DNA from: Alphaproteobacteria bacterium | GTDB taxonomy: Bacteria > Pseudomonadota > Alphaproteobacteria > Caulobacterales > Hyphomonadaceae | Assembly (NCBI GenBank): GCA_018969425.1 | Contig: JAGWYJ010000027.1 | Span: forward strand, 1-44,529 | Direction: 5' to 3' | Length of the DNA: 44,529 nt | Shown here: positions 1 to 17,692 of the stretch, in pieces | Position numbering within the stretch: the first letter of the stretch is position 1 | How the letters are laid out: every line of letters starts with the position of its first letter | Translations under genes and position numbers: made by a program | The notes under the pieces: model-generated | The model's input: only the letters and a program-made list of their open reading frames with translations | The model's database searches: none | Told to the model about the DNA's origin: nothing

Positions 1-216
1 ACTGTCTGAGAGAATGTCCCGCGCCGCCTCGAGACCTGCGAGGACGTCCTCTCGGGTATGACCGTATTGCTCAAGATAGCTGCACTCGCCCCGACCGATA
101 AAATCGCCATCGCGAATAATCGCCAGGAAAAGCGATGAGTTGGCGCGCGAACTCCGTGAGATCCGGAAAGTCTCCCGATAGGGCCATTCCTGGTAGGCGT
201 AGAGCAGCTCCATCAT
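1..216 (-). CDS. Enolase-superfamily dipeptide epimerase, N-terminal part (cut by window edge)
   Basis: Reading the minus strand from an ATG at 216 gives 72 codons open to the window edge. The protein begins MMELLYAYQEWPYRETFRIS and contains DGDFIGRGECSYLEQYGH near residues 36-53. That layout (FRISR, then an acidic turn, then GRGEC..Y..YG) is typical of the N-terminal capping domain of L-Ala-D/L-Glu-type dipeptide epimerases of the enolase superfamily. The barrel with the catalytic lysines and metal ligands lies outside the window, so substrate cannot be judged. The ATG overlaps the stop of the upstream MaoC gene as ATGA, so it is the fourth gene of the pepN-like operon. An epimerase of dipeptides next to peptidases suggests inversion of D-residues. 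Another member of the mandelate racemase/muconate cycloisomerase group is possible. Confidence 0.72.
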   Translation of the reverse strand, partial: MMELLYAYQEWPYRETFRISRSSRANSSLFLAIIRDGDFIGRGECSYLEQYGHTREDVLAGLEAARDILSDS

Positions 217-2413: not shown

Positions 2414-2467
2414 GAAGGTCTCCTTCAAAGGCGATCCGAGCGGAAGAGAACAAATGGAAACCAGGGA

Positions 2468-5089
2468 TCATGAGAGCTCACCTGCTCCGAGGGAGCGGCT
2501 CACGACATCTCTGAGAGCTGGAGACAGATCGGGGACGGAGGCTATAGCCTCCAGCTCCGCCCTCATAAGAGCCCGCCTCCCGACGTCAAAGCGTCTCCAG
2601 TTCGTGATCTGCGGCATCAACCACCGGACGCCCTGCGGACGGACACGATCAAGGGTCAGCACGGTCTCCCGCAAGAGTTTGTACCCCGATCCGTCAGCTT
2701 CATGAAAGCCAATTCGATTTTGCCGGAAAAAGCCTCCGAACAAAGCCATCGCAAGAGGCGCATTGGCCATGTTGAAAGAGTCCGAAGACGCAAGTCTGGC
2801 GACACGGTCAGCCGCACCGGGTTGCCGAGAGAGAGCTTGGGCTCGGAACCAGATCCGCATGACGCTGTCGACGCCCTTCCATCGGGCCTTGAACCCTTCA
2901 AGGGCCTCGTCGCATTCTTCAGAGGTCGTATTGCAAAGCGAATAAAGCGCAGCGCTCCGGGCTGTCATACCCGGAGCGCAAAGCGCCTCCTCACAGGCGA
3001 TCTGCCGGATTGAGGCGTCATCCAGCTCCAGGAGATAATCGAGGCACATTGCGCGCAGACGCCGCGCGCCCCTCGCCTCAGGAGTCAGATCGACACGGCC
3101 CTCCGGATCGCAGGCATGAAAGACCGACAGAAGTTCATCACGGTGGCGAAGTGCGAACGCCCGACGCAGGACAGTCGATCCTTCAGCAAGACCGTCGATA
3201 TCGACTTCAGGACATGGATCGGAAATCAGACCTATATGCGGAAAGCTCAGAAGCTCCGCCCGCAGGGAGCGTTCGGCCCTCTCATCGGTCAGGACGCGCC
3301 CCATGGCGTCTATAAGCGTTTCAAATGAAGGAGACGCCTGTCCCTCCCGGCGAGCGGCGGCAAAACCGCGAACCGCCGCCCCCATAAGCTCCTGCCCGGC
3401 GTCCCATCGCGAAAAGCCGTCAGAATCATGAGCGAATAGCAGGAGCAAATCGTTTTCGCTCCGTTCAACTTCGAGACTCACAGGAGCGGAAAAGCCGCGA
3501 TTGCATGAAAGAACCGGACGATGATCAACACCTTCGAATTCGAAGGTCTCTTCATGACTTCGAATTTCAAGCAGACCATCGCGCGTCGCTCCGGACGAAC
3601 GAGCCGTAACCTCCGTTCCATCCGACCTAAGCAGGCCGAACCGGAGGGGTATATGGAGGGGCTGATGTTCGGGACTGTCCTGCCGGACAGTTACCCGAAA
3701 GACGCGTCTCTCCGGATCGTGGATCGTCCCGATCCGAAGACGCGGCTGTCCGGCCCGGTCATACCAGCGGACGAACTGACTGAGATCGACCCCCGACCCG
3801 TCGCTGAGGGCCGAGAGCAAGTCGCCGATCGTGACCGCCTGTCCGTCATGACGAGCGAAGTAGAGGTCCATTCCCCTGCGGAATGCCCGCTCTCCAAGCA
3901 GGGTATGCAGCATGCGCACAAGCTCGGCCCCCTTGTCATAGACCGTGGCCGTATAAAGATTGGATACGGCGTTATAAGACCGGGGCTGCACAGGATGAGC
4001 TGTCGGCCCCACATCTTCGGGAAACTGATTGGTCCTAAGATTGCGAACCGTAGTGATCCTCTTGACCTCCGGAGCCGACATGTCGGCGGAGAACTGCTGA
4101 TCCCGAAACCGGGTTAAGCCCTCCTTGAGACTGAGCTGGAACCAGTCGCGCACGGTGACGCGGTTTCCGGTCCAGTTATGGAAGTACTCGTGTCCTGCGA
4201 TCCGCTCGACAAGATCAAAATCCTCATCCGTCGAGGTCTCCGCATCGGCGAACGCATAAGTCGCCTCAAGATACATGAGGCCCTTGTTTTCCTGCGCGAT
4301 CGCGTGCCTCTCGGGCACGATCACGTTGAACACCGGCAAATCGCAGACGCGGCCATAAACCTCCTCGTCCCAGGCCATGGCGCGAGACAGAGCGCCCAGC
4401 AGAAACTGACAGCGGACAATATTTTCTCGCCGGGCATAAACGACGATCTCGCATTCAATTCCTGAGGAAAAGACATGCCGGGTTCGGGTCGACTCCCAGT
4501 CCCCCGCAGCGATTGCAAATATGTAACAGGGTTTGGGGGTCTCATCACGCCACAGGGCGTAGTGCCGGCCGGCCCCGACGTCACCGGTCTCGACGCATAT
4601 TCCATTTGAGAGAAGAACCGGAAATTGTGCCCGCGCCCCCTCGAGGCGCACGGTATAACGGGAAAGGACATCCGGACGATCCTGAAAGAAAGTCAGACGC
4701 CTCATACCGTCAGCTTCCATGTGGGAAAGAATGGCCTCTCCCTCCATGAACAGACCAATGGACGCAGTATTTTTCCGGGGAGAAACGAGGCTCACCACCT
4801 CCAGATCGACGACATCGCCTTGCGGATAAAGTCGGACGCCCTCCTCAGTCTTCTCGACTGAGGACGGGGCGAGCTCAACACCATCAAGTCGAATCGAGAC
4901 GATCTCGAACTCGCGGCCGCAAAGCTCAAGAGGCCTCCCCTGTCGGACGCCGGGACGTCTGCGAAAACGCTGCTGACAGGTGATCCGGGTGAGCGAAGCG
5001 TCAAGGTCGAATCGAAGCGAAACCTCCTCCGTCAGAAAATCCGGAGGACGGTAGTCGCTTAGTCGTACACGGCCTGACCCATCGGCCAT
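2468..5089 (-). CDS. pepN: PepN-like M1 family zinc aminopeptidase with altered GAMEN motif
   Basis: The zinc site is intact: HEYFHNW (about residues 300-306 from the chosen start) followed by LKEGLT with the third ligand Glu 18 residues later. Order is N-terminal beta domain, M1 catalytic domain and long helical C-terminal domain, 873 residues against about 870 for E. coli PepN. The exopeptidase motif normally reading GAMEN is IAQEN here (RHAIAQENKGL). An upstream ATG at 5158 would extend it by 23 residues, but the ATG at 5089 has GGGAG eight bases upstream, and the 5158 start would place the operator at 5167 on the ribosome site, so 5089 is preferred. It removes N-terminal residues from peptides in the cytosol and heads the operon with the aminotransferase, MaoC and epimerase genes. 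Confidence 0.88.
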   Translation of the reverse strand: MADGSGRVRLSDYRPPDFLTEEVSLRFDLDASLTRITCQQRFRRRPGVRQGRPLELCGREFEIVSIRLDGVELAPSSVEKTEEGVRLYPQGDVVDLEVVSLVSPRKNTASIGLFMEGEAILSHMEADGMRRLTFFQDRPDVLSRYTVRLEGARAQFPVLLSNGICVETGDVGAGRHYALWRDETPKPCYIFAIAAGDWESTRTRHVFSSGIECEIVVYARRENIVRCQFLLGALSRAMAWDEEVYGRVCDLPVFNVIVPERHAIAQENKGLMYLEATYAFADAETSTDEDFDLVERIAGHEYFHNWTGNRVTVRDWFQLSLKEGLTRFRDQQFSADMSAPEVKRITTVRNLRTNQFPEDVGPTAHPVQPRSYNAVSNLYTATVYDKGAELVRMLHTLLGERAFRRGMDLYFARHDGQAVTIGDLLSALSDGSGVDLSQFVRWYDRAGQPRLRIGTIHDPERRVFRVTVRQDSPEHQPLHIPLRFGLLRSDGTEVTARSSGATRDGLLEIRSHEETFEFEGVDHRPVLSCNRGFSAPVSLEVERSENDLLLLFAHDSDGFSRWDAGQELMGAAVRGFAAARREGQASPSFETLIDAMGRVLTDERAERSLRAELLSFPHIGLISDPCPEVDIDGLAEGSTVLRRAFALRHRDELLSVFHACDPEGRVDLTPEARGARRLRAMCLDYLLELDDASIRQIACEEALCAPGMTARSAALYSLCNTTSEECDEALEGFKARWKGVDSVMRIWFRAQALSRQPGAADRVARLASSDSFNMANAPLAMALFGGFFRQNRIGFHEADGSGYKLLRETVLTLDRVRPQGVRWLMPQITNWRRFDVGRRALMRAELEAIASVPDLSPALRDVVSRSLGAGELS

Positions 5090-5166
5090 CTTGTCCGCTC
5101 CCGATACGGCTCCGATCCGGTCCCGCCCGGGCGACAGACCGCCGGACAGCCCAGACATTCTGGAGC

Positions 5167-5190
5167 ATATATGATCACTGCATATATTAT
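5167..5190 (-). promoter_or_regulatory. Promoter -10 box with divergent operator-like palindrome upstream of pepN-like operon
   Basis: On the minus strand a perfect TATAAT lies at 5190-5185. It overlaps an inverted repeat ATATATG-N7-CATATAT (5167-5187). The sequence TATATGATCAC is shared with the palindrome at 14196, but the two halves are two bases closer here, so it is a divergent version of the family. No good -35 box is visible. The overlap with the -10 box would suit a repressor. Confidence 0.5.
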
Positions 5191-5351
5191 AGCCTCTCCG
5201 TCAAGCAGCATGCTCAATCTCCATGCGCGGCGCCAGACGAAAGCTTCGGCGAGTTTAGAAACGGCCCATGACCGGATTGAAAGACAGTTTTGACCCGTTG
5301 CGCAGGGTGCAGGACAGGATCAATGGTCACGCCCTCAGCCAGGGCGCCCGA

Positions 5352-5396
5352 TTGACGCCTGCGAGTCGACGAAAATATAAACACTGATAATATCAG
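5352..5396 (+). promoter_or_regulatory. Promoter with start-site palindrome before the S58 aminopeptidase gene
   Basis: TTGACG (5352-5357) and TATAAA (5376-5381) are 18 bp apart, a good housekeeping-type promoter. The 13-bp palindrome CTGATAATATCAG (5384-5396) covers the expected transcription start. It does not resemble the palindrome seen at 6994/10879/14196, so a different regulator may bind here. About 40 bp of leader follow before the ATG at 5439. Confidence 0.55.
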
Positions 5397-5438: not shown

Positions 5439-6596
5439 ATGAATCCTCATCACCGACACACTCCTTCGGGCAAGCTTCGGGCCCGCGGCGCGGGCGTTCC
5501 CCTGACCGGAACACCGGGACAATGGAACGCTATTACCGATGTGCCGGGAGTCGAGGTCGGATACGTCACCCTCATTAAAGGCGAGGGTCCTCTGGTGATC
5601 GGCGAAGGGCCTGTTCGAACGGGCGTGACAGCGATCCTTCCCAGGGGGCTGGCGGGGGCGACAGACGGAGTATTTTCAGGCGCCTTTTCACTCAACGGAA
5701 ATGGGGAAGCGACCGGCCTTCACTGGATCGAGGAGACTGGACGTCTCGACGGCCCGATCACCATCAGCAACACCCATGCAGTAGGGACGCTTCATTCCGC
5801 GGTCATCAAGTGGTTGAACCGGCGTAAGGACAGCGAGAAGCTGGACGGCAACACGTTCTGGATGCCTGTCGCCGCCGAGACATGCGACAACTGGCTCAAT
5901 GACATGAACGGGTTTCACGTCCGCGAAGAGCACGTGCACGAGGCGATCGAAAGCGCACGATCCGGGCCGGTCGAGGAAGGAAGCTGCGGCGGCGGGACCG
6001 GAATGTCTTGCTACCAGTTCAAAGGTGGATCGGGGACAGCGTCCCGCAAGGTTCGGGTGGCTGGTCGAACCTACACCGTGGGCGCCTTCGTTCAGACCAA
6101 CTTCGGCGTCCGCAAGCTCTGCACGATCGGCGGGGTCCCGATTGGCCGCTACATTCCTTACAGCGGAGGTCAGATCCATCGCTATCTCATGGACCATCCC
6201 ACAGACCAGGGGTCCATCATCATCGTCGTGGCGACAGACGCGCCCCTGTCTCCGCTGCAGCTGAAGCGACTCGCCCGACGCGCGGGTATAGGCATGGCCC
6301 GGTCAGGAGGCATCGCGTCAAATGAATCCGGCGACATCTTTATCGCCTTTTCGACCGCCAACCTGGACGCCTACCGCCGGGTTTATGAGGTCGGTCCGAT
6401 GGAGAGTTATGGCGAGTTCATGATGACCCCGATGATGGAAGCCACGGTGGAGTCAGTTGACGAGGCGATTCTGAACGCACTCTTCACTGGAGGGGACATG
6501 ACCGGCCGGGATGGGAATGTCCGGGAAGGCCTGCCGGTGGAGCAGGTGATCGGACACCTCAAGCATCATAACCTGTGGGTCGATCCCGACGCCTGA
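5439..6596 (+). CDS. DmpA/BapA-type self-processing aminopeptidase (peptidase family S58)
   Basis: 385 residues. The family is recognised from ITDVPGVEVGYVTL (about 32-45), ITISNTHAVGTLH (107-119), EEGSCGGGTGMSCYQFKGG (179-197) and QGSIIIVVATDAPLSPLQLK (257-276). In DmpA/BapA enzymes the precursor cleaves itself before the serine of the GSIIIVVATDAPL stretch, which then becomes the N-terminal nucleophile; here that is Gly258/Ser259. Family members release N-terminal D-alanine or beta-amino acids from peptides, amides and esters. No signal peptide is evident. The gene stands alone with its own promoter, between the pepN-like operon and the EthD gene. Which of the DmpA-like or beta-aminopeptidase activities applies cannot be read from sequence. 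Confidence 0.9.
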   Translation: MNPHHRHTPSGKLRARGAGVPLTGTPGQWNAITDVPGVEVGYVTLIKGEGPLVIGEGPVRTGVTAILPRGLAGATDGVFSGAFSLNGNGEATGLHWIEETGRLDGPITISNTHAVGTLHSAVIKWLNRRKDSEKLDGNTFWMPVAAETCDNWLNDMNGFHVREEHVHEAIESARSGPVEEGSCGGGTGMSCYQFKGGSGTASRKVRVAGRTYTVGAFVQTNFGVRKLCTIGGVPIGRYIPYSGGQIHRYLMDHPTDQGSIIIVVATDAPLSPLQLKRLARRAGIGMARSGGIASNESGDIFIAFSTANLDAYRRVYEVGPMESYGEFMMTPMMEATVESVDEAILNALFTGGDMTGRDGNVREGLPVEQVIGHLKHHNLWVDPDA

Positions 6597-6625: not shown

Positions 6626-6943
6626 TTATCCCGGCTCAGGCGTCACCTCATGTTCGACCACGAAAAGCCGGTCCCGACGGCTGACCATGGACAGACTGTC
6701 AGCCGCTACAGCCTGCCCGTGGGGCTCGGCGTAGGCCGCGAGGAAATCCGCCTCCGTGTCGAACCAGAGCTCGGAAGCGCCGTCATACGGCGCGTTCTCA
6801 TCCGCTGCTATGTTGATGGTCATGCGCCTGAGGCCCTTCAGACGACGAGCCAGAGGACGGTGCGTCTCAAGCCACCATCGCGTGAACTCCTCCTTCGCCA
6901 TGCCTTCGCGCCGCTTCAGAAGAATAATCGCTTTGAACGCCAT
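6626..6943 (-). CDS. EthD-family dimeric alpha+beta barrel protein
   Basis: 105 residues beginning MAFKAIILLKRREGM, then FTRWWLETHRPLARRL (about 20-35), ending in a short acidic tail. The FxxxWxxxHxPL arrangement is typical of EthD-like ferredoxin-fold proteins, small homodimers whose members are often found beside degradation genes. The ATG at 6943 has AGGAGG just upstream. It is transcribed away from the aminotransferase at 7067 across a 123-bp spacer holding an operator palindrome, and converges on the S58 peptidase gene. Its exact function is unknown. Confidence 0.75.
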   Translation of the reverse strand: MAFKAIILLKRREGMAKEEFTRWWLETHRPLARRLKGLRRMTINIAADENAPYDGASELWFDTEADFLAAYAEPHGQAVAADSLSMVSRRDRLFVVEHEVTPEPG

Positions 6944-6993: not shown

Positions 6994-7012
6994 ATGTGAT
7001 CATCGGTCATAT
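6994..7012. promoter_or_regulatory. 19-bp TetR-type operator palindrome between EthD and aminotransferase genes
   Basis: ATGTGATCATCGGTCATAT: half-sites ATGTGA and TCATAT separated by 7 bp. It is nearly identical to the sites at 10879 (18 of 19 when that one is read on the minus strand) and 14196. It lies in a divergent intergenic region and could control both genes. Confidence 0.65.
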
Positions 7013-7066
7013 TGACGAGTCCGGCGCAACACCATCTTGTGGATGTCTCAGCTTCGGAGCCGACAC

Positions 7067-8377
7067 GTGAGAAACGATCTCGACGCCTATTGGATGCCCT
7101 TTACCCCCAACAAGGCTTTCAAAAGCGCCCCGCGCATGGTGGCGGCGTCCGAGGGACAATTCTACATTATGTCTGACGGTCGCCGCATTCGCGACGGTTT
7201 CTGCGGCATGTGGTGCTCCCTCCTTGGACACAACCACCCCAAGGTGACGGAGGCGATCGTCGACCAGGCTCGGCGTCTGGACTACTCGCCGGCCTTCAAT
7301 TTCGGACATGAAGGCGCCTTCAGGCTGGCGGATACGATTTCCAAACTCTGGCCAGGAGAACTGGATCATGTGTTCTTCACCAACTCGGGATCCGAGGCGG
7401 TGGATACGGCCCTCAAGATGGCTCTCGCCTACCATCGTCTTCGGGGCGAAGGCTCCCGCACGAGGCTGATCGGGCGCGTCCTTGGCTATCACGGGGTAGG
7501 CTTCGGCGGCATTTCCGTAGGCGGGATGGTCAACAACCGGAAGATGTTCGGCGGTCTTCTGGGCGGCGTCGACCATATGCCCCTACCCTACAACCCCGCG
7601 GCTGACGCCTTCACGCGGGGCCAGGCCAAGACGGACCCGATGCTCTACCTCAGAGAGCTCGAACAGATCATCGCGCTTCATGATCCCTCAACCATCGCCG
7701 CTGTCATCGTCGAGGGCTTTTCAGGATCCTCAGGCGTATTTATTCCGCCTCAGGGCTATCTTGAGAAGCTAAGAGAAATCACGAAGCGTCACGGCATTCT
7801 CCTCATTCTTGACGAAGTGATCACGGGCTTCGGCCGCCTCGGTGCTCCCAATGCGGCCACCTTCTTCGGCGTCGAACCCGACCTGTGCACCATCGCTAAG
7901 GGAATGAACAACGCAGCCGTTCCAATGGGTGGGGTCGTAGTCTCCCGCACCATATATGACACCTTCATGCAGGGCGTACCCGCAGGCGTTGAGTTCTTTC
8001 ATGGCTATACATATTCCGCTCACCCGCTGGCTGTCGCTGCAGGAAACGCCGCTCAGGAAGTGTTTCGGGAAGAAGGCGTCTTTGACAATGTCGCGAGCCT
8101 CACAGCAGGTTTTGAGGACGCGATGCACGACCTCAAGGGGCTTCCGTACGTGACCGACATCCGCAATATCGGCCTAGCTGGGGGGATTACCCTGGAAACG
8201 CGGCCAGGAGCCCCTGGAGCGAGGGGCTACGAGCTTTTCCTCCGCGCCTTCGAAGAGGGGGTCGCCATCCGGAACAACGGAGACACGATAGCGATTGCGC
8301 CCATTCTCACCAGCCGAGCCGAAGACATCGAGGCGATCTTCTCCGGCGTGAAAAAGGCCTTCGCAAAACTGACCTGA
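7067..8377 (+). CDS. Class III omega-amino acid:pyruvate aminotransferase
   Basis: 436 residues from the GTG at 7067. That start follows CGGAG at 7-bp spacing and puts the typical family opening LDAYWMPFTPNK near the N-terminus; a TTG at 7037 and an ATG at 7043 are less likely. Class III features: GMWCSLLGHNHP near 47-58, FFTNSGSEAVDTALK near 103, LDEVITGFGRLG with the pyridine-ring Asp near 249, and TIAKGMNNAAVPMGG with the PLP lysine near 278. The motif set matches beta-alanine/omega-amino acid:pyruvate transaminases, which move a terminal or beta-amino group to pyruvate. It is the second class III enzyme of the island and has its own operator, so it may take the beta-amino acids released by the S58 peptidase. 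A terminator hairpin follows at 8482. Confidence 0.88.
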   Translation: MRNDLDAYWMPFTPNKAFKSAPRMVAASEGQFYIMSDGRRIRDGFCGMWCSLLGHNHPKVTEAIVDQARRLDYSPAFNFGHEGAFRLADTISKLWPGELDHVFFTNSGSEAVDTALKMALAYHRLRGEGSRTRLIGRVLGYHGVGFGGISVGGMVNNRKMFGGLLGGVDHMPLPYNPAADAFTRGQAKTDPMLYLRELEQIIALHDPSTIAAVIVEGFSGSSGVFIPPQGYLEKLREITKRHGILLILDEVITGFGRLGAPNAATFFGVEPDLCTIAKGMNNAAVPMGGVVVSRTIYDTFMQGVPAGVEFFHGYTYSAHPLAVAAGNAAQEVFREEGVFDNVASLTAGFEDAMHDLKGLPYVTDIRNIGLAGGITLETRPGAPGARGYELFLRAFEEGVAIRNNGDTIAIAPILTSRAEDIEAIFSGVKKAFAKLT

Positions 8378-8481
8378 CCCAAGGCCTACCCGCGATCAGT
8401 CATCCGCGCCCCGACTTCTGTCGCCAAGGTTTCGGGCAAGATCCGCAACCCCGAATCCTGTAACGACGCATGATCAGAAAA

Positions 8482-8506
8482 AAGGCGCGCCCCGGGGGCG
8501 CGCCTT
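8482..8506 (-). terminator. Rho-independent terminator between convergent genes
   Basis: A 12-bp GC-rich perfect stem with AAGGCGCGCCCC as left arm. On the minus strand it is followed by six T residues, so it should end the TonB-receptor transcript, and it may also stop the aminotransferase transcript from the other side. Confidence 0.8.
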
Positions 8507-8581
8507 ATGTTGTTCGCTTAAGAGGGCGCTCCGGCCTGCGTCGCTCCCGGCGGGAAGCGACGCAAACAGAACTCGCTCTGA

Positions 8582-10831
8582 TCAGAAGCGCTGAGTGATG
8601 TCGACACCCCAGGTCTGACCCTCCGACGTGTTGGTTCCCCGGTTATAGAACCAGAACTGCGAAATATGTTCATCCAGCAGGTTACGAACATAGGCGGTGA
8701 TCCGGGTTCCTTCATTCGTCTCCACACCGGCCCTCAGGTCGATCTTGGTCATCGTGTCGTACGGATCAACCACATAATAATCGCCAAGAATGCCGCCGCT
8801 TTCATAACGGATCGATGCCCCGCCAACGAATGTAAGGGCGTCGTTGATCGGCGCATCCACGTCGAACTGGGCGTTAGCCGTCCATTCTCGCGTATAGGGG
8901 ATCAATTTTCCGCTGAGGACCTGTTGAGAAGGCTTCCCGCGATTGGCGACAGCGTCGTCAAACTTCGGATCAAGCCAGCCAACGCTGACCGCGCCCGTCA
9001 GCCAGCTGGTCGGACGGAAGAAGGTCTCGATCTCGATGCCCGAAGTGTTCGCTGTCCCGACATTGTCGAGATAGGTGCGATCAACGCCCCCGAGAGAGGT
9101 CTGCATCGCCAGAAGCAGATCTTCCTGCCGCATCATGAACGCCGCAATGTTGGCGTCGAGACGACCATCAAAGAAGCTGCCCTTCAGCCCGACTTCGTAG
9201 TTGGTCGCCGTTTCCTGACCGTATGGAATGGTCTGCACGGTCGTGGGGGAGAGGTTGAACGCTCCCGGCCGGAAGCCTGTGCCATATGAGGCGTAGGCGT
9301 TCAGCGTGTCCGAGAGCCGGAAACGAGCCGTCACGCTCGGCGACCAGTTGTCGAACTCGCTCTCCGAGGCGAACACATAAGTCGGATAGGGTCCCGCAAG
9401 GAGGGTCGCAAAATAGGAATCGAGCGCAGTGTTGCCCGTACCCGTCGGAAGAACGCCCTGGGAATAATTGAGAGATTTTGTATCCTGCGAATATCGCAGG
9501 CTGGCGCTCAGGCTTAATGCGTCCGACACATCATAGTTGGCGGTCGCAAAAGCCGAAAGGGTCTCGGTCTCTACGGTTGTTCCAGACTTTGGAAAGCCGA
9601 TGAGAGCCGTCTGAATGCCGTATGACGGGGTGTTGCGACGCGACTTGATCGTACGTGCGAAATTGAACTCTTCGTTGAAATAGGACACTCCGAGCAGCCA
9701 TGTCAGAGGCTTGTCGTCAGCGGATGCATAGAGCGCCTCAAGAAAGTAATCCTTGGTGCCCTCATCCCGGACGATGTCCGTCTGCCTGGCGACGGACGAT
9801 GACTGAGGCCCGATAGAGGTCTGATCAGAGTCCTGAATGGAGTTGAAGCCGTAGTCCTTGTAGCTCGCGTTGAATGTCAGCTCGCCGCTGTCCAGCTTGT
9901 AGTTGATGACCTGTGACGCATAGAGCTCCGTGATATCGGCGTCTGACCGGGTGTCACGACGGATCCGATCCACCGTCTCAGGCGTGGACATGGCGCCGAA
10001 GTTCGAAATGCCCAGAGGCGCGTAGGTGCGCATGGACGGGCCTTCCCATTCGCGGCTCTCGAGCGTCCACAGCACGCTCAGACGATCGGAGAGATCGACC
10101 TTGTAGCCCGCCCGAAGACCGCGGTCCGAAAACTGGCCGACAAACTCATTGAGCGTCTCATTGAACAGCTCGCTCTCGGTCTGATTGAAGGACCAGCCGG
10201 TAAGCCGCAGCGCGCCGGTATCCCCGACCGCCAGATTGACGGCCCCCTGAACCTCCGTCCTCTTGTAGGAACCATAGGAGGCTTTGGCGTATCCGCCGCC
10301 GTCCCGAGAGGGCGTCGCATAGATGATGTCGACTGTCCCACCCACGGAGCTGCGTCCGTAAAGGCCGCCCTGAGGGCCGCGCAACACCTCTATGCGCTCA
10401 ACGTCGACCTGAGAGCCCAGATTAGCCCTGTGCCCGCCCATATAGAGCCCGTTTCGATAAAGACCGACATTGGGCTCAGCCTGGACATCGACAATTCTCA
10501 TGCCGCGAATATTGACGAAGGTATTGAAGCTCTCAGGGTTATCCTGAATGACCGAGTTGGGAATAAGAGCGACGATATCCTGAAGATCGCTCACGCCGTT
10601 GGCGAGAAGGTCATCGCCCGAAATGGCGGTCACGGTAACCGGCACGTCCTGCAGGTCTGCCGAACGTCGCGTGGCGGTCACCACAACCGTCTCACGTTCA
10701 GATCCCGCAGCCGGGGCGGCCGCAGCTCCGGCCGTCGCCTGTTGCGCTGCGGCCTGCCCTGACGGCAACATTACGGCGATCGCGGTTGCGGACATCAGCA
10801 TCCGCGAAAGAGCGCCTGAATTCCTGGTCAT
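8582..10831 (-). CDS. TonB-dependent outer membrane receptor
   Basis: 749 residues from the ATG at 10831, which has a strong GGGGAGAGGAAG ribosome site; an ATG at 10858 is less likely. The N-terminus is a signal peptide ending near GQAAAQQ. A TonB-box-like ETVVVTATRR follows, then a plug domain (DVPVTVTAISGDDL, NIRGM, VERIEVLRGPQGGLYGRSSVGG) and a long beta-barrel ending in the C-terminal aromatic GVDITQRF. It would import a substrate across the outer membrane using the TonB/ExbBD system, which is not in this window. Two operator palindromes lie upstream (10879 and 10904), so it is probably co-regulated with the peptidase genes and brings in their substrate. Confidence 0.93.
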   Translation of the reverse strand: MTRNSGALSRMLMSATAIAVMLPSGQAAAQQATAGAAAAPAAGSERETVVVTATRRSADLQDVPVTVTAISGDDLLANGVSDLQDIVALIPNSVIQDNPESFNTFVNIRGMRIVDVQAEPNVGLYRNGLYMGGHRANLGSQVDVERIEVLRGPQGGLYGRSSVGGTVDIIYATPSRDGGGYAKASYGSYKRTEVQGAVNLAVGDTGALRLTGWSFNQTESELFNETLNEFVGQFSDRGLRAGYKVDLSDRLSVLWTLESREWEGPSMRTYAPLGISNFGAMSTPETVDRIRRDTRSDADITELYASQVINYKLDSGELTFNASYKDYGFNSIQDSDQTSIGPQSSSVARQTDIVRDEGTKDYFLEALYASADDKPLTWLLGVSYFNEEFNFARTIKSRRNTPSYGIQTALIGFPKSGTTVETETLSAFATANYDVSDALSLSASLRYSQDTKSLNYSQGVLPTGTGNTALDSYFATLLAGPYPTYVFASESEFDNWSPSVTARFRLSDTLNAYASYGTGFRPGAFNLSPTTVQTIPYGQETATNYEVGLKGSFFDGRLDANIAAFMMRQEDLLLAMQTSLGGVDRTYLDNVGTANTSGIEIETFFRPTSWLTGAVSVGWLDPKFDDAVANRGKPSQQVLSGKLIPYTREWTANAQFDVDAPINDALTFVGGASIRYESGGILGDYYVVDPYDTMTKIDLRAGVETNEGTRITAYVRNLLDEHISQFWFYNRGTNTSEGQTWGVDITQRF

Positions 10832-10878
10832 TGACTTCCTCTCCCCTGAACGACGCATCGGAGCGGCTGTACCAGATC

Positions 10879-10897
10879 ATATGACCGATGCTCACAT
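10879..10897. promoter_or_regulatory. Operator palindrome, receptor-proximal copy
   Basis: ATATGACCGATGCTCACAT. On the minus strand it reads ATGTGAGCATCGGTCATAT, differing at one base from the site at 6994. Spacing is again 6-7-6. It lies 48 bp upstream of the receptor start and overlaps a possible -10 TATGAT. Confidence 0.65.
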
Positions 10898-10903
10898 GGA
10901 ACG

Positions 10904-10922
10904 TTATGAGCAGTGTTCACAT
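10904..10922. promoter_or_regulatory. Operator palindrome, receptor-distal copy
   Basis: TTATGAGCAGTGTTCACAT, half-sites TTATGA and TCACAT with a 7-bp spacer. It lies 25 bp from the first copy (start to start), which suggests two dimers binding side by side. A TTGACA hexamer (minus strand) abuts it. Confidence 0.55.
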
Positions 10923-11232
10923 TGTCAACAGTGTCAACATTCATTTGATCGAGGCGTGTCCCTGACGCATCAGCTGACCAGGCTCGCAGCGTCGCCCCTG
11001 ACCCAATGCACGCATTCAACAACGCCAGCTGGGGAAAATAGAGAGAAAGGCAGGTCACACAGACGGCAATTGCGCTTCAATCTTCGTCAGGCTTGTCGAG
11101 ATGTATGCGTCGCTTATATTCACGTCGGTACAACATCACGCCTTCATTGCAGGGCTGAGGGTCATCACCCTCCGGTCGTCGGGGTCGCAGCCTCCGACGC
11201 ACCGCACGGGACCAGGGACAGGGAGCCTTTTC

Positions 11233-12651
11233 GTGAAGCTGACCGCCACCGCCATCGCAGACGCCGTACGTTCCTCCCGCATGTCGGCGAAGGAGGCTCT
11301 CGATCAGGCTTTCCAGCGTCTCGACGCGCTCAACGGCCCGATCAACGCCTTCGTCCGAACGGACCGCCAGCAGGCGGAGATTGCGGCTGCTGAGATCGAT
11401 GCCCGCATAGCGCGAGGCGAGGACCCGGGCATCCTGGCCGGAGTGCCTGTCGGAGTGAAGGATCTCGAGGCCTGCAGGGGGTTTCCGCTGACACAGGGCA
11501 GCCTGTTCCTGAAGGACGCTCCCGCCGAAGCCTCGGACAGCCGGCATGTCGCGCGCCTTCGCGCGGCCGGAGCGGTTATAATCGGCATTACCGCATCCGC
11601 TGAATTCGGCATGGATTCGGCGACCAATACGCTTCTTTACGGGGTAACCCGAAATCCATGGAATCCGGAAACGACGCCAGGCGGTTCAAGCGGAGGATCC
11701 TCAGCAGCCGTGGCCGCAGGCATTGTGCCGCTGGCGACCGGAACGGATGCAGGAGGATCCATTCGCGCTCCGGCCGCATTCACCGGCATTATAGGACACA
11801 AGCCAAGTCACGGCCGAATTCCCAAAATGAATGGGTTCTCAAACTGGGGCGTTCACGGCGCGCTGGCTGCAAATGTGGCCGACGCAGCTCGCCATCTCGA
11901 CGCAGTGTCCGGTCCCGACGACGGCGATCGACAGTCTCTTCCGGACACCGGGTACCGATACGAGGATGTCATTGAAACGCTCAATGTCTCGGGCCTCAAA
12001 GCGGTCTGGTCTCCCGACTATGGATATGCGGCGGTCGAACGCGAGGTCGTCGAGATCGCCTATGCAGCGGCGCGACGCCTGATGGAGGCGGCGAAACTGA
12101 CGCGCTGCGAAGCGGACTTCCACCCGGTGAACATCTATCCTCACTGGGGGGCAATCTTCGGATCGACGCTCGAGGAGGACTTCACAAAGGCCGGATACCT
12201 GCCGGACGGCTACGACAAGCTTTCCAAGTCAGTCCGCCGGGTCATAGATCGCGTACGTGCGCGCCGGGCGCAGGGAGTGATCGACGTGCAGGCGTCCTGG
12301 GCTCAGGTTCATCGTCTGGAGCAGCAGGTGGCGGATTTCTTCAGAAGCTACGACCTGGTCATGTCGCCCGCCGTTTCGTGCCGTGCATATGGAGCGGAAG
12401 ACAGCCCCCCGTCTGTGATCGAAGGAAAGGACGCATCCATGGGCGGAGCCGAACCGTTCGGCATGCTCGCCAACGCCTGCTGGAATCCCTCAATCTCGAT
12501 ACCGGCAGGCTTCACATCAGACGGCCTTCCGGTTGGCCTCCAGATCGTCGCCAAGCGTCACCGTGACGACATTTGTCTGAGACTGGCGCGCATCATGGAG
12601 GTCGCCCATCCATGGCCCTATCTGCCCGAAGTCAGGGGATTAGGAATCTGA
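11233..12651 (+). CDS. Amidase signature family hydrolase
   Basis: 472 residues from the GTG at 11233, which follows GGGAG at usable spacing. The amidase-signature catalytic triad is visible: Lys76 in VGVKDLEA, cis-Ser152 in TPGGSSGGSS and nucleophile Ser176 in GTDAGGSIR. The 76- and 24-residue distances fit the family. These enzymes cleave C-N bonds of amides, including peptide amides and N-acyl amino acids. No signal peptide is seen, so it is probably cytosolic. It lies between the receptor and the two beta-lactamase-fold hydrolases and converges on the first of them, with a hairpin between. The substrate is not predictable; Glu-tRNA amidotransferase GatA is excluded by context and by the absence of gatB/gatC. 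Confidence 0.9.
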   Translation: MKLTATAIADAVRSSRMSAKEALDQAFQRLDALNGPINAFVRTDRQQAEIAAAEIDARIARGEDPGILAGVPVGVKDLEACRGFPLTQGSLFLKDAPAEASDSRHVARLRAAGAVIIGITASAEFGMDSATNTLLYGVTRNPWNPETTPGGSSGGSSAAVAAGIVPLATGTDAGGSIRAPAAFTGIIGHKPSHGRIPKMNGFSNWGVHGALAANVADAARHLDAVSGPDDGDRQSLPDTGYRYEDVIETLNVSGLKAVWSPDYGYAAVEREVVEIAYAAARRLMEAAKLTRCEADFHPVNIYPHWGAIFGSTLEEDFTKAGYLPDGYDKLSKSVRRVIDRVRARRAQGVIDVQASWAQVHRLEQQVADFFRSYDLVMSPAVSCRAYGAEDSPPSVIEGKDASMGGAEPFGMLANACWNPSISIPAGFTSDGLPVGLQIVAKRHRDDICLRLARIMEVAHPWPYLPEVRGLGI

Positions 12652-12697
12652 CCGGGGAAAAGCCGCAGTCACGGTCAGCCTCAACCGCCGCCCAATA

Positions 12698-12727
12698 GTC
12701 AGGCGATGCTCTGTCGCGCCGCCTGAC
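12698..12727. terminator. Hairpin between convergent amidase and hydrolase genes
   Basis: Perfect 8-bp arms GTCAGGCG and CGCCTGAC with a 14-base loop, in the 92-bp gap between two convergent stops. There is no clear T-run on either side, so it may be a weak terminator or a transcript-end structure. Confidence 0.45.
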
Positions 12728-12743
12728 GAACCAGATAAAACGA

Positions 12744-14162
12744 TCAGGACGACGTTTCGCGGATCGCCCGAAGAATTTCGACCCCGCCCTCCGCCCAGGC
12801 GGTGAGCTCAACGGCCTGACCGGAGGCATCATATGTCACAGCAGACTCGCTTGCAGTCTGTTGCGTGAAGAAGCGGCCATTCTGCCCCATGTAAATCGGT
12901 CTTGGCGGCAGGATCAGACCTTCAATGAACGAATGCAGCTGACCATTCTCGCTCCAGATATCGATATGAGGGGCGCTGATCCCGGAAACAATTCGATAGC
13001 GCCCCACATAGCGATGGTGCTCCTCGGGCGGTACGATCTGGATGACCTTTGGGTCCTTGAAGAAGGAAGACCACTGATAGGCTCTCGCAACTCCATTGAT
13101 GATTTCCGAGTAAAGAATAATGCCCATCAGTGAATTAGTGAGAACAACAGCGCCCTTTCCCTGCTCGAGCAGGCATGTCGTGTTACACTGAAAGCCCTCA
13201 TTGGATCCGCCGTGACCAAAGCGCGCCCCCGGGCCGTCGCCGAACAGTTCCCAGCCAAGCGCGAACTGCCCGGGGTCCTGACGTGTGAGCATGGTTCGGG
13301 CCGCAGCCTGACTCATAAGCGCGTTAGGTTTCCCCAACCAGGCATTGCGCATTTCCACCATGAAGCGGGCGTAATCAGGCGCCGTCGTATAGACGCCGCC
13401 GGCAGCCTGCTGAGGCGTATGGGTAAAGCGGGTCTTGATCAGGCCCCCGCTCTTGTCATGACCAGACGCCGTATAAGCATGGAACGATTCAGGAAGGGGC
13501 TGACGGAACGTGGACCTCGTCATGCCGAGAGGAGCAAAAATTCTCTGCTCAGCGAGATCTGCGAACTCAAGACCCGTCTGCTCCTCCAGGAGCAGCTGCA
13601 CAATCTGCGTGCCGCCGCCGGAATAGCGCACTGATCTTCCCGGAACCTTATCAACAACGACCGCAGGCGTAAGGGAGGGCGGGCGTCCCAGCAGCGTATC
13701 CATATTGCTTGGCGGGGTCTGGCCCGCAGGAAAGGCTCCAAAACCGTGCACCGTAGTGCCCGCCTTGTGGCAAAGAAGATGACGAAGCGTGACCGGCGCC
13801 TCTTTCGTGAAAGAATTTTCGGGAAGCTTCCACGACTTCAGATAATCGTTCACAGGCTGATCGAGGCCGATACGACCCTGATCGACCAGCTGCATAGCGA
13901 GAACCGCTGCGAGGGGCTTGCTGATAGACGCTCCGGCGAACATCGTATCAGCTGCAACAGGCTCTCGGCGACCAGCCTCCTTGAGTCCGAAGCCGCCGAC
14001 ATCTGCAACCTCGCCTCCGTCAATGACCGCGATTGCGACGCCGGGACAATTGTACTCTTTCAGGCGGTCCGTAATCGGCCAGCTGACGTCATGGCCCGCG
14101 ACCGGATTGACCGGGAGGACATGCGCGACTGCGTCCTCCAGACGATTGAGAACTCCGACCAT
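12744..14162 (-). CDS. Serine hydrolase of the class C beta-lactamase / D-aminopeptidase fold (YSG variant)
   Basis: 472 residues, start ATG at 14162 with GGGGAG upstream. SISK at 79-82 supplies the nucleophile and general base, and GHGGSNEG replaces the KTG-like third motif. The second motif, usually YxN, reads YSG (Tyr180-Ser-Gly182), so the usual Asn is missing. A C-terminal extension of about 110 residues after the catalytic domain resembles the beta-barrel tail of this group. No clear signal peptide is present. Members act as D-aminopeptidases, D-Ala-D-Ala hydrolases, esterases or amidases. It is divergent from a paralogue at 14256 across an operator palindrome, which suggests both are induced together to cut the imported substrate. 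Confidence 0.85.
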   Translation of the reverse strand: MVGVLNRLEDAVAHVLPVNPVAGHDVSWPITDRLKEYNCPGVAIAVIDGGEVADVGGFGLKEAGRREPVAADTMFAGASISKPLAAVLAMQLVDQGRIGLDQPVNDYLKSWKLPENSFTKEAPVTLRHLLCHKAGTTVHGFGAFPAGQTPPSNMDTLLGRPPSLTPAVVVDKVPGRSVRYSGGGTQIVQLLLEEQTGLEFADLAEQRIFAPLGMTRSTFRQPLPESFHAYTASGHDKSGGLIKTRFTHTPQQAAGGVYTTAPDYARFMVEMRNAWLGKPNALMSQAAARTMLTRQDPGQFALGWELFGDGPGARFGHGGSNEGFQCNTTCLLEQGKGAVVLTNSLMGIILYSEIINGVARAYQWSSFFKDPKVIQIVPPEEHHRYVGRYRIVSGISAPHIDIWSENGQLHSFIEGLILPPRPIYMGQNGRFFTQQTASESAVTYDASGQAVELTAWAEGGVEILRAIRETSS

Positions 14163-14195
14163 GATCGCTCCCCGAGGCTTGCTGTTGCCGAGATT

Positions 14196-14214
14196 ATATG
14201 ATCACCGTTCATAT
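14196..14214. promoter_or_regulatory. Operator palindrome between two divergent hydrolase genes
   Basis: ATATGATCACCGTTCATAT, the most symmetrical copy; with one more base on each side the arms are 7 bp (TATATGA and TCATATA). On the minus strand it overlaps a TATAAT -10 box (14198-14193). It lies 34 bp from one start codon and 42 bp from the other, so a single bound repressor could silence both genes. Confidence 0.7.
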
Positions 14215-14255: not shown

Positions 14256-15347
14256 ATGGGCGAAGAGTTCCGGCGCACATTGGACGACGTCATGACGCGC
14301 GGCCTCAGGGAGCACACTCTTCCAGGCGCAGCCATCGCGCTGATCGAGGGGGGCCGTCCGGTCTTCACAGGCTGCTGGGGAGAACGGGACCGCGAGAGCG
14401 CCGCCCAGGCGGGGGAGGACACCCTCTTCGCGCTTCAATCGATCTCGAAATCCTTCGCCGCCATCGCCGTCATGATGCTTGTGGAGGAAGGGCGCCTGAA
14501 CCTTGATGATCCGGTAGAGCGCCATCTTCAGCGCTGGCGGCTTCCGCCGTCAGACTACCGCCACGCCGACGTGACCGTGAGGCGTCTCCTTGGCCATCAC
14601 GCGGGAGTATCCTCAGCGGGATTTCCGGGCATAGCCGAAGGATACGAGAGTATCAGCCTCATCGACGGCCTGAATGGGATCATCAGTCCGTTCACCGAAG
14701 AGCAGGAGATCTACTGGAACGAGTGGAGCCTGGATCGGGACTGGCCGGTCCGGATCACATTCAGGCCCGGGGAAGGCTGGCGATACTCTAACGGCGGCTT
14801 CGGCATACTTCAGATCATGATCGAAGATCTGTCGGGCGAGACCTTCGAGTCCTTCGTAGCGAAACGAATCTTCGCCCCTCTCGGCATGACGAGATCGACC
14901 TTCTTTCCGTTCAAAGACGCCGACCTGGCGGAGCCCTACGGCCCAGAAGGCAAGCGCAGGCGCCGGTATCGAACGCTCTGCGCTGCGGCGGGAGGAATCT
15001 ACTCCAGCATACGAGACCTCGCCGCCTTCGCCTGCGCCGAAATCAATCTTCCGACAGGCCGCGGCCTGCTGTCAGCCGCATCCGTAGCCGAATTGTGGCG
15101 CCCCATCGGACTCGCCGACAAGAGCGGAGACGTTCAATTCGAAGCCGCTCTCGGCCATCTGCGTTACGAGAATGCAGGACGCTTCAACATTCATCATTCG
15201 GGCGGTACAATCGGATGGCGAAGCATCTACTCGGTCTTTCCGGAGACCGGCGACGGCTTCTGCATGGTCATGAACTCCGACCAGGCCAATCCATTCTGGA
15301 TTCCGCTCATTCGACGCTGGCGCGAAACAATATTCGGAAAGAGTTAG
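14256..15347 (+). CDS. Serine hydrolase of the class C beta-lactamase fold (canonical YSN)
   Basis: 363 residues. All three motifs are canonical for this fold: SISK at 62-65, YSN at 177-179 and HSGG near the C-terminus. FAPLGMTRSTFF is the usual sequence before the late part of the domain. There is no signal peptide, so it is probably cytosolic, and it lacks the C-terminal extension of its divergent neighbour. Possible activities are D-aminopeptidase, amide or ester hydrolase; a role in antibiotic resistance is unlikely from the catabolic context. Its stop overlaps the convergent stop of the TetR gene by about 4 bp. Confidence 0.87.
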   Translation: MGEEFRRTLDDVMTRGLREHTLPGAAIALIEGGRPVFTGCWGERDRESAAQAGEDTLFALQSISKSFAAIAVMMLVEEGRLNLDDPVERHLQRWRLPPSDYRHADVTVRRLLGHHAGVSSAGFPGIAEGYESISLIDGLNGIISPFTEEQEIYWNEWSLDRDWPVRITFRPGEGWRYSNGGFGILQIMIEDLSGETFESFVAKRIFAPLGMTRSTFFPFKDADLAEPYGPEGKRRRRYRTLCAAAGGIYSSIRDLAAFACAEINLPTGRGLLSAASVAELWRPIGLADKSGDVQFEAALGHLRYENAGRFNIHHSGGTIGWRSIYSVFPETGDGFCMVMNSDQANPFWIPLIRRWRETIFGKS

Positions 15348-16018
15348 CCTCGGATCCCAGTGATAACCTGACGCGTCAGGTCCTCCACAAACCGTCGCCT
15401 CTCGGCGCGGGTTCCGGACGCGTTGGCTATCAGACCCTGAGAATAGCTGCGTGCGAGACCGTAGATAAAAGAAAAAAACGCATAAGCCGCCTTACAGGCT
15501 TCATGAGAGTGCTCAAGATCCTCCGGACGATAGAGATCCTCACCATGAACAATCTGCACGAGCACCCGGAAGCTGTCGTCGGCCTGAGAGACGTAATGGG
15601 GATGAGACGACACATCTCCCAGCTGTCCAAACATCAGACGAAACAGCTCCGGCTCCGAACATGCGAACTCGACGAGATTCTGCGCCAGCTGGACCAGCAT
15701 GTCCTCTCGAGCGCCGCCCCTCTTCAGCAGCCGACGGTTCTCCGCCGCCCTCGAGGCGAAACCCTCCGCGGCCACATCGAGAAAGAGCTGCTCCAGGCTG
15801 TCGAAATGATTGTAAAAATTGGCGGAGGAAACCCCAACTTCACGACACAGACGACGGGCAGTGATCGCCTCGACGGTCTCCGTCTCAAGAAGACGTCGGG
15901 CGGCGGACACAAGGCTCGCCTTGACATTGCCCTTATGATACGGGCCCACCCCCGCCCGGTCGCGCAGGCGTCGCCCGGGGGAGATCTCAATTACCTTGCC
16001 TGACGCAGAATTCGTCAT
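15344..16018 (-). CDS. TetR-family transcriptional regulator
   Basis: 224 residues with an N-terminal helix-turn-helix (ITARRLCREVGVSSANFYNHF, residues 52-72) followed by LEQLF and a helical ligand domain. It is preceded by GGAGAAGG at short spacing. It is the only transcription factor gene of the island and sits between hydrolases and transporter, so it is the best candidate to bind the palindromes at 6994, 10879, 10904 and 14196, whose 6-7-6 symmetry suits a TetR dimer. Its inducer is probably the substrate or a breakdown product. It is divergent from the MFS gene, and the spacer contains a large inverted repeat. Confidence 0.9.
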   Translation of the reverse strand: MTNSASGKVIEISPGRRLRDRAGVGPYHKGNVKASLVSAARRLLETETVEAITARRLCREVGVSSANFYNHFDSLEQLFLDVAAEGFASRAAENRRLLKRGGAREDMLVQLAQNLVEFACSEPELFRLMFGQLGDVSSHPHYVSQADDSFRVLVQIVHGEDLYRPEDLEHSHEACKAAYAFFSFIYGLARSYSQGLIANASGTRAERRRFVEDLTRQVITGIRG

Positions 16019-16155: not shown

Positions 16156-16205
16156 TATCCTAAGCGCCGGCCATAAGCCTACGCTCTTGCCATCCGATTG
16201 GATGA

Positions 16206-16224
16206 ATGTGATCAATGATAACCT
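16206..16224. promoter_or_regulatory. Weak operator-like half-palindrome upstream of MFS gene
   Basis: ATGTGATCAATGATAACCT has a perfect left half-site and the TCA-rich centre of the 19-bp operator, but the right half matches at only 4 of 6 positions. It is placed as expected for control of the MFS gene. Confidence 0.3.
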
Positions 16225-16276: not shown

Positions 16277-17692
16277 ATGACAGAGCCGACCGGCGCCCCA
16301 GGGGCGCAAGACAGGCAGCCGCGCCCTCTGACCACCGCACAGAGGCTGGCGTTCGGCTTTCCAAGCCTTCCGCACGCACTGGTCGCCTATCCGGTCTACT
16401 CTCTCCTTCCGGCCTTCTACGCCGCCAACACGAGCGTGACGCTGGCTCAGATCGGGGCCATAGCAGCCGCCAGCCGCATCTTCGACGCCGTGAATGATCC
16501 GATTATCGGATATCTTTCCGATCGCACCAAGACGCGATGGGGAAGCCGGAAACCGTGGTTCATCATCGCCATTCTGTTTCTGGCGGGAGGTATCATCCCC
16601 CTTTTCAACCCGCCGCCTGAAGCGACCATCGTCTACTTCGCCATCTGGTCGACCATCCTCTACACTGGCTTCACCATGTTTGAAGTGCCCCGAAGCGCAT
16701 GGATGACGGAGACCACTCGCGACTACATGGAGCGATCGCGGATCGGCACGATGGTCGGTTGGTTCAATATATGCGGAAGCCTGGTCGTCTACCTTCTGCC
16801 GATCGGAATGTCGTTTTTCACCGGATCCTCAGCGATCGGGCCCGACACTATGAAAGGTATCGTCTTCCTGTATCTGATCATCATGCCCATCGGCATGATC
16901 GCTGCGGTGACCGTCGTTCCGAAGGGCGTGGAAGTTGCCCGTCAGAAAGTTGACATCAAGGGCATCTGGAAGACTGTCACGTCATGTAAGCCGCTGATGA
17001 GATTTTACATCATCACGATCCTTTGGGGCCTCGGCCAGGGATCCTTCATAGGGACCTCATTTATTTTTCAGACTGAGTACATGGGGTTCAAGGAGCAGAT
17101 CCCCTACATCATGATCACTTTCTTCGCGTCGGGCGTGATGTTCATGCCTGTCTGGTCGAAGATCCTCATCACCGCAGACAGACATCGGGTCTGGGGATCC
17201 TTTGTTCTGCTGTCGACTGCGATGGGCTTTGTCACTCTGCTTCTGCCAAGAGGACCTGAGGCGTTCATTCCCGTTGTCCTGCTAGCCGTCGTGCGCGGCT
17301 TCTTCGGAACGCCACAGAACTTTCTGCCCGGGGCGGTCCTCTCGGACGTCATCGACTACGACACGATGAAGTCCGGTTCGAGCAAAGCAGGCAATCTCTT
17401 CGCGGTTCAGATGCTGCTGATCAAGATCTCCATGGCGATCAGCGGAGCCCTCGCCTTCTTTATCCTTGATATATCGGGGTTCAGGATCGGACAGCCCTCC
17501 ACCCCGATGGGGGATCTGGGACTGATCACAGCCTATCTCGGCTTCCCCTTCCTCATGCATCTGGCCATGGCGGCTCTATGCTGGAATTTTCCGATCAATC
17601 GGGAGCGCCACAAAATCATCCAAAAGCGCCTCGAACAGCGCGCCTTGCGGTCAAAGCGAGATGAACTCGCGGCCTCAGCCATAGCAGGGTAA
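16277..17692 (+). CDS. MFS transporter of the GPH (glycoside-pentoside-hexuronide:cation symporter) type
   Basis: 471 residues from the ATG at 16277, which has GGGAG eight bases upstream; an earlier in-frame start at 16187 would add 30 unlikely residues. About 12 hydrophobic segments are visible. FDAVNDPIIGYLSDRTKTRWGSRKPW (in pieces, near residues 70-95) is the hallmark of GPH/MFS_2 carriers, with the D..N..G.lsD.T....G.R.P pattern. Sequence related to GPH is also found in carriers for non-sugar solutes, so the substrate need not be a sugar. In context it would bring a peptide, amide or amino acid across the inner membrane after TonB-driven uptake. It is divergent from the TetR gene. Confidence 0.87.
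   Translation: MTEPTGAPGAQDRQPRPLTTAQRLAFGFPSLPHALVAYPVYSLLPAFYAANTSVTLAQIGAIAAASRIFDAVNDPIIGYLSDRTKTRWGSRKPWFIIAILFLAGGIIPLFNPPPEATIVYFAIWSTILYTGFTMFEVPRSAWMTETTRDYMERSRIGTMVGWFNICGSLVVYLLPIGMSFFTGSSAIGPDTMKGIVFLYLIIMPIGMIAAVTVVPKGVEVARQKVDIKGIWKTVTSCKPLMRFYIITILWGLGQGSFIGTSFIFQTEYMGFKEQIPYIMITFFASGVMFMPVWSKILITADRHRVWGSFVLLSTAMGFVTLLLPRGPEAFIPVVLLAVVRGFFGTPQNFLPGAVLSDVIDYDTMKSGSSKAGNLFAVQMLLIKISMAISGALAFFILDISGFRIGQPSTPMGDLGLITAYLGFPFLMHLAMAALCWNFPINRERHKIIQKRLEQRALRSKRDELAASAIAG

Follow-up and report, generated by a model that had tools for sequence, protein, structure and literature searches.

Which protein, if any, switches the genes lying between positions 10 and 17692 of a 44,529-nucleotide contig (JAGWYJ010000027.1, assembly GCA_018969425.1) from an alphaproteobacterium of the Hyphomonadaceae? 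The contig, called the window here, carries in this interval an island of predicted peptide-degradation genes together with a gene for a TetR-family regulator, and the original prediction was that a palindrome of 19 base pairs (bp), repeated in the control regions, makes the island a TetR regulon. The present analysis supports this claim: the palindromes are specific to the island and are conserved together with tetR and its target genes across several lineages, and, as far as sequence comparison can indicate, the island is very probably under the control of its own TetR-type switch protein, which is predicted to bind them.

The palindrome in the island and in its genome

The four palindromes originally described, at 6994, 10879, 10904 and 14196, are all present letter for letter. 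In the window, the pattern ATRTGA-N7-TCAYAT with up to two mismatches gives 11 matches against 2.24 expected, a count reached by none of 100 shuffles. Such sites are clearly not equally common elsewhere in the genome (3,245,086 bases in 91 contigs, the window being contig C18): all three exact matches lie in the island, as does one of the ten sites with one mismatch, and at up to two mismatches there are 165 sites, against 17 for the reversed-pattern control. The symmetric form ATRTGANCANTGNTCAYAT separates the island sites better than this pattern; with up to two mismatches it finds 11 places in the genome and none in the reversed control, seven of them in the island (5169, 5375, 6994, 10879, 10904, 14196 and 16206), one before an alanine dehydrogenase gene and three within long open reading frames (ORFs), and relaxing it to three mismatches adds no site in the window. 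A weight matrix built from seven window sites alone returned the following eight sites in the window. They are listed without strand, with the matrix score and the bases conserved in G002, the sister genome and closest relative found, whose matching contig C58 has 83-88% DNA identity in the aligned pieces of the island region.

5169..5187, putative operator 1, some 10 bp upstream of the genes for a PepN aminopeptidase, a class III aminotransferase (AT3a) and a MaoC-like dehydratase; score 25.6; 19/19 conserved
5375..5393, putative operator 2, before the S58 peptidase gene; score 28.0; 17/19 conserved, and nearer the consensus in G002
6994..7012, putative operator 3, between the genes for an EthD-domain protein (minus strand) and an AptA-like aminotransferase (plus strand); score 26.6; exact motif; 18/19 conserved
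10879..10897, putative operator 4a, before the TonB-dependent receptor gene; score 25.1; 19/19 conserved
10904..10922, putative operator 4b, 25 bp from 4a; score 24.9; 19/19 conserved
11101..11119, putative operator 5, 113 bp upstream of where the amidase gene probably starts (near 11233); score 16.5, and 23.2 for the G002 counterpart; 16/19 conserved
14196..14214, putative operator 6, between two divergent genes for beta-lactamase-fold hydrolases; score 28.9; exact motif; 18/19 conserved
16206..16224, putative operator 7, before the GPH transporter gene and 188 bp before tetR; score 24.0; 19/19 conserved

Weaker forms had also been proposed at 5167, 5315 and 16206. Those at 16206 and 5167 (the correct start being 5169) are real sites with every base kept in G002, and that at 5315 (which really starts at 5314) was rejected, with a score of 4.6 and 7/19 bases conserved. 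Two sites, 5375, with the second highest score in the window, and 11101, had been overlooked.

Conservation sets the sites apart from their surroundings, as 145 of the 152 bases in the eight sites (95%) are identical in G002, compared with 638 of the 946 other bases (67%) of the five promoter-bearing regions, and this value was not matched by any of 20,000 random placements within those regions. G002 itself has ten places that fit ATRTGANCANTGNTCAYAT with up to two mismatches, and seven of these correspond in position to the island sites of the window. The position of the sites in intergenic control regions was correctly described: the island has seven gaps of more than 60 bases, the five that bear promoters hold all eight sites, and neither of the convergent gaps (8378-8581 and 12652-12743) contains one. 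For seven of the eight sites the distance to a start codon is about 10 to 55 bp, the one at 11101 being farther away. Three of the five site-bearing gaps have either one site near the two divergent genes or a separate site for each; with sites so placed, one bound dimer could shut one or two promoters. A chance origin of the motif was rejected by the shuffles, the genome counts, the matrix nulls and the conservation permutations.

Adjoining the site at 10904 is a 25-base block (10923-10947) that is fully conserved in G002 and has TTGACA hexamers on the minus strand. It contains the weak match TTGTCAACAGTGTCAACAT (10922, score 11.3), which was not counted and may belong to a promoter rather than an operator.

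The regulator and the sites in other lineages

The regulator is a protein of 224 amino acids encoded on the minus strand (15344..16018), a presumed operator-binding repressor with TetR_N (35.3 bits; cut-off 24) and TetR_C_33 (33.1 bits; cut-off 26.8) domains. As had been stated, it is the only regulator in the island, in the sense that it is the sole one recognised among the ORFs scanned; the same holds for the corresponding clusters of a Caulobacteraceae metagenome genome (G441, locus L036) and of a further genome, G651, both with a TetR of 56% identity. Such orthologues are rare, being found at E = 1e-20 in three of the 398 genomes of the order sample, our own and G002 included. Among 390 genomes of the family of G651, six had a match at E = 1e-22 or better, of which two are G651 itself and G923 (the same genome as G441, left uncounted), and the four others were analysed.

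The window-derived matrix was run on the loci recruited in this way by the TetR protein, with random sequences of the dinucleotide make-up of each region as nulls (60 per region for the window, G651 and G441, and 20 per region for G979, G1002, G794 and G788). G651 has seven sites scoring 17.2 to 33.0, the next best match scoring 7.7 and the random sequences at most 17.1; G441 has twelve scoring at least 15.3, with a random maximum of 18.2. At the threshold of 14 used for the others, there are six sites in G979, 13 in G1002, eight in G794, and two and three at the two loci of G788, where 0 to 0.2 are expected per sequence. Thirteen control relatives, chosen from 60 and each without a TetR match above 37% identity, contain ten sites in total at up to two mismatches (0 to 4 per genome). 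With G979, which is close to G651, not treated as independent, five further lineages thus have sites before homologues of island genes, with TetR proteins 37-56% identical to that of the window, and the motif accompanies the island genes and tetR through six lineages in differing gene orders.

The targets recur as well. The TonB-dependent receptor has two or more sites, and the GPH transporter has a site, in the window, G441, G651, G979, G1002 and G794, and sites also face the amidase, AT3a, the S58 peptidase, the hydrolase BL1 or PepN, either singly or as the first gene of a run. In G788, where the genes lie on two contigs, the receptor, BL1, AT3a and the S58 peptidase are faced by sites, and none was found at the transporter or the amidase. 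Some genes lack a site of their own: the amidase and BL1 follow PepN in G794, and the S58 peptidase follows AT3a in G651. In G441 and G651 the regulator gene itself lies behind a gene that is preceded by a site, and in G1002 a site lies 83 bp before the tetR match; two other G1002 sites (86712 and 95035) adjoin no island homologue. The second hydrolase, BL2, was found in the window and in both G651 and G979. The clusters of G441, G651 and G979 have an acyl-CoA ligase, and genes for a thiolase, an epimerase-like MR_MLE protein and a class I/II aminotransferase each occur in several clusters.

A better consensus, the 19-bp ATRTRANCRNYGNTYAYAT, was obtained from 36 main-group sites (window 8, G441 9, G651 7 and G1002 12), and ten variant sites from G794 and the G788 C147 locus were tallied apart; omitted from both tallies were all G002 and G979 sites, G441 78438, 78952 and 96008, G1002 86712, G794 86291 and both G788_C60 sites. 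The original 6-7-6 spacing is not the best description, since C8 and G12, which it places in the spacer, are kept in 70 of the 72 main-group half-sites and G5/C15 of the TGA/TCA halves are loose. Position 7 of the operator is mostly T or G in the main group, with A in 13 of 72 half-sites, and is A in all 20 half-sites of the variant group (the Fisher value of 7e-12 assumes independent half-sites, which is untrue, and is not used as a probability). The TetR helix reads (T/S)SANFYNH(F/Y) in the main group and TPANFYNHF in G794 and the G788 C147 locus, and a second difference is LARE in the latter against LCRE or LCRD in the former. The operator differs where the helix differs, which is supporting rather than conclusive evidence, and the paired difference in G794 and G788 offers a small natural experiment on TetR specificity.

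The symmetric match before the alanine dehydrogenase (ald) gene lies on another contig, away from the island (C9:127228; L028:2229-2247), 58 bp upstream of the gene. It scores 28.4 with the 36-site matrix and is conserved in G002 at 19/19 bases, while much of its upstream flank differs; mechanical ORFs of 128 (own genome) and 333 (G002) amino acids overlap it, neither being the ald gene. Pyruvate-dependent transamination produces alanine, so ald would be a sensible target of the regulon, and this site is a sharp and cheap prediction. Among the G441 and G651 sites at up to three mismatches, 20 places outside the clusters were inspected, most of them in or against ORFs and none beside an ald gene. 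An operator-like sequence, CGGTGATCAATGATCATAT, is the same in G651 (L074:2810, C5) and G979 (C10:63051) and lies by an SDR-like ORF in G651; in that lineage it may mark a second target outside the island.

A repressor model and its alternatives

The other genes of the island are given below with their predicted functions. The core genes are those for the TonB receptor, the GPH transporter, the amidase, the S58 aminopeptidase, PepN, the class III aminotransferase and a beta-lactamase-fold hydrolase, and the starts of the amidase and transporter genes are placed where their homologues begin.

10..213, minus, N-terminal part of an MR_MLE protein (DgcA / L-Ala-D/L-Glu epimerase-like), cut by the contig end and whole in G002; 56% identity to a G441 protein
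213..1058, minus, MaoC-like dehydratase (PF01575, PF13452), probably in one operon with AT3a and PepN
1073..2428, minus, HemL-like class III aminotransferase AT3a (core); best PDB match 6k8h, E = 2e-105
2468..5158, minus, PepN aminopeptidase (core); TIGR02414, 866.6 bits (cut-off 718.2)
5439..6596, plus, S58 aminopeptidase of the DmpA/BapA group (core); PF03576, E = 8e-107; best PDB match 1b65
6626..6943, minus, EthD-domain protein (PF07110); 50% homologue in the G794 cluster
7037..8377, plus, AptA-type omega-aminotransferase; NF052567, 627 bits (cut-off 500); best PDB match 4b98, a beta-alanine-pyruvate transaminase
8582..10858, minus, TonB-dependent receptor (core; PF00593, PF07715)
11233..12651, plus, amidase-signature hydrolase (core; PF01425), likely start, the mechanical ORF beginning at 11101; 56-72% homologues
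12744..14162, minus, beta-lactamase-fold serine hydrolase BL1 (core; PF00144); 37-64% homologues in G441, G651, G979, G1002, G794 and G788
14256..15347, plus, beta-lactamase-fold serine hydrolase BL2 (PF00144)
16277..17692, plus, GPH/MFS_2 transporter (PF13347, E = 4e-66), start (about 16277) likely, the mechanical ORF beginning at 16187

We hold with high confidence that the palindromes are operators of the island TetR, which as a dimer would bind them and repress, rather than activate, the island promoters until a peptide breakdown product releases it; the same protein would repress ald in trans. Peptides would enter through the TonB receptor and the GPH transporter, those with non-standard residues would be cut by the S58 aminopeptidase, PepN, the amidase and the beta-lactamase-fold hydrolases, and the two class III aminotransferases would take the amino group off beta- or omega-amino acids, with a product of the imported peptide acting as the inducer. 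A system of this ordinary kind, a local TetR regulon, is well supported.

Several observations weigh against this interpretation. The score of the site at 11101 is by itself within the chance range (random sequences reached 18.1), as are those of the four weakest G441 sites (below 18.2), and the nearest window site to the start of tetR is the one 188 bp away. Some matches are intragenic (G441 96008 in the S58 gene, G794 86291 in the transporter gene and G1002 86712 in an ORF of 845 amino acids); at up to three mismatches 20 of the 32 sites of G441 and seven of the 13 of G651 are on other contigs, and the reversed control gives one match in G1002 and two in G794, with none in the other three genomes. 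No site precedes ald in G441 or G651, and this target is, on the present comparison, lineage-specific. Neither of two further loci has sites, namely L038 (a short contig with a broken TetR match) and L037, whose TetR (45% identity) carries TPANFYNH yet is accompanied by neither form of the motif and by no match to the other island proteins; for this reason the co-variation of helix and operator is taken as supporting only, and TetR similarity alone fails to predict a site. Finally, in G011 (C136) two sites (L020:1381 and 1423; scores 19.7 and 22.9), 42 bp apart, precede the gene of a TetR protein of only 29% identity, and one of the ten sites of the control relatives lies before this gene. The motif may therefore be common to related TetR proteins and is probably older than this ortholog group.

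Half-sites resembling TGA..TCA are common to several families of factors, and the palindromes might be operators of another regulator encoded elsewhere, such as a paralogue of the TetR or a global factor resembling FNR/CRP or LacI, with the island TetR controlling only itself. The G011 sites would fit this, as would a second match to the TetR query in our own genome (28% identity); however, in six lineages the sites are grouped about this TetR and the fully counted genomes have few of them elsewhere, unlike those of a global factor, the operator differs where the helix of the island TetR differs, and no second regulator was recognised among the scanned ORFs of the window, G441 and G651 clusters, which together make another regulator improbable. 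That the palindromes are instead copies of a small repeat dispersed in the genome, or of a promoter or terminator element that the genes share, is scarcely credible and largely refuted. They are intergenic and mutually similar, and two of four promoter-like matches overlap sites (11101 and 16206), in a scan that overall was no better than shuffles (3.4 expected) and was not used as evidence; but the convergent gaps lack them, none of ten terminator-like matches is at a site, the sites vary while keeping their symmetric positions in diverged flanks, and few copies exist off the island.

A different kind of alternative accepts the regulon and changes its substrate. The gene set points to a system that takes up and degrades peptides containing beta- and/or D-residues, and a single shared pathway for the island genes, as originally proposed, is plausible. 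It is possible, though we rate it below even chances, that the epimerase, the D-Ala-type hydrolases and PepN recycle wall peptides of the L-Ala-D-Glu type. The MR_MLE gene, downstream of PepN-AT3a-MaoC, scores best (as its whole G002 protein) with DgcA (352; cut-off 400) and L-Ala-D/L-Glu epimerase (267; cut-off 343), below both cut-offs, and the best PDB match of the S58 protein is 1b65 (318 bits), which we take to be DmpA, an L-aminopeptidase/D-Ala-amidase, followed by two D-aminopeptidases and, at 270 bits, by the beta-peptidyl aminopeptidase BapA (3n2w). The aminotransferases suit this substrate less well: AptA is nearest a beta-alanine-pyruvate transaminase, and AT3a matches the beta-phenylalanine aminotransferase 4ao9 at E = 3.6e-70, ranked below glutamate-1-semialdehyde aminomutases, its nearest solved structure, 6k8h, being a Sphaerobacter transaminase that accepts several beta-amino acids as well as a gamma-amino acid, according to the account in PMC10589169. 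AT3a is thus a probable beta-amino-acid transaminase, and the acyl-CoA ligase and thiolase of G441 and G651 better suit a beta-keto acid. From these genes we put forward, as a speculation in which we place rather little confidence, that the regulon is a catabolic programme, dedicated to natural non-ribosomal peptides with beta- and D-residues and reshuffled repeatedly. The S58 enzyme would free a beta-residue, transamination would turn it into a beta-keto acid, and activation and thiolysis would follow; ald, under the single off-island operator, would balance the pyruvate/alanine pool. Freshwater cyanobacterial peptides would be candidate substrates. If true, this would assign a natural role to the S58 aminopeptidases and provide a sensor for such peptides.

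Relation to known systems

The tetracycline regulator is one comparison. The island protein shares the TetR_N helix-turn-helix, its presumed operator is likewise an odd-centred palindrome and the core of tetO has similar letters, whereas the island operator is the 19-bp consensus given above and the tetracycline TetR model of NCBIfam yields 22.4 bits against a cut-off of 265. Another is with LiuQ, FadP, PsrA and RutR of Proteobacteria, the TetR-family catabolic regulons tabulated in PMC5343134, in which catabolic operons are likewise controlled through shared DNA sites across several lineages. Their pathways, for branched-chain amino acids, fatty acids and pyrimidines, are unlike that of the island; in the main text of PMC5343134 the words 'aminopeptidase', 'peptide' and 'alanine dehydrogenase' do not occur. 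In the literature searched, which left most subscription-journal papers outside its coverage, no description of this regulon was found. In a plasmid collection, the best TetR match among those listed has 33% identity (all are below 60%), and the 12 S58 matches listed reach at most 54.3%.

The S58 protein resembles DmpA and BapA over about 91-93% of its length (1b65 and 3n2w) and keeps, in alignment with both, the SGDIF serine, the residue that serves as nucleophile in this family. In the island it is joined to transport, transamination and a probable TetR regulon, and no regulator for a DmpA/BapA S58 aminopeptidase was found in the literature searched. To our knowledge, the natural role of these aminopeptidases is unsettled; the inducer of the TetR should be a compound of the pathway, and identifying it would reveal what the substrate is. 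This TetR, the 19-bp operator and the target promoters can be tested together, with protein and site variants from six lineages as built-in controls.

Two more specific substrates were considered. NylA, NylB and NylC belong to the amidase, beta-lactamase-fold and S58 families, the ground for considering nylon oligomers, and this reading is not supported, the amidase match to the 6-aminohexanoate-cyclic-dimer hydrolase 3a2p being only seventh of 56 and none of the five S58 matches being named NylC. The mlr cluster for microcystin has a transporter, as the island does. A beta-lactamase-fold hydrolase is also present in both, MlrB being described in PMC11070527 as an enzyme of the penicillin-recognising family. 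A microcystin reading was rejected: MlrC-family (DUF1485) genes occur in one of four genomes, our own, on another contig with no operator near, in a comparison that included no search for MlrA. Microcystin-like peptides remain only candidates within the non-ribosomal-peptide proposal. The MlrC-family matches are two adjacent ones (C37:15168-17518; L097 and L098), not found in G002, G441 or G651.

Where the AptA and TonB-receptor genes converge, the gap has a GC-rich hairpin of 11 pairs (8482-8506) that is flanked on both sides by T-rich tails and is likely to be a two-way terminator.

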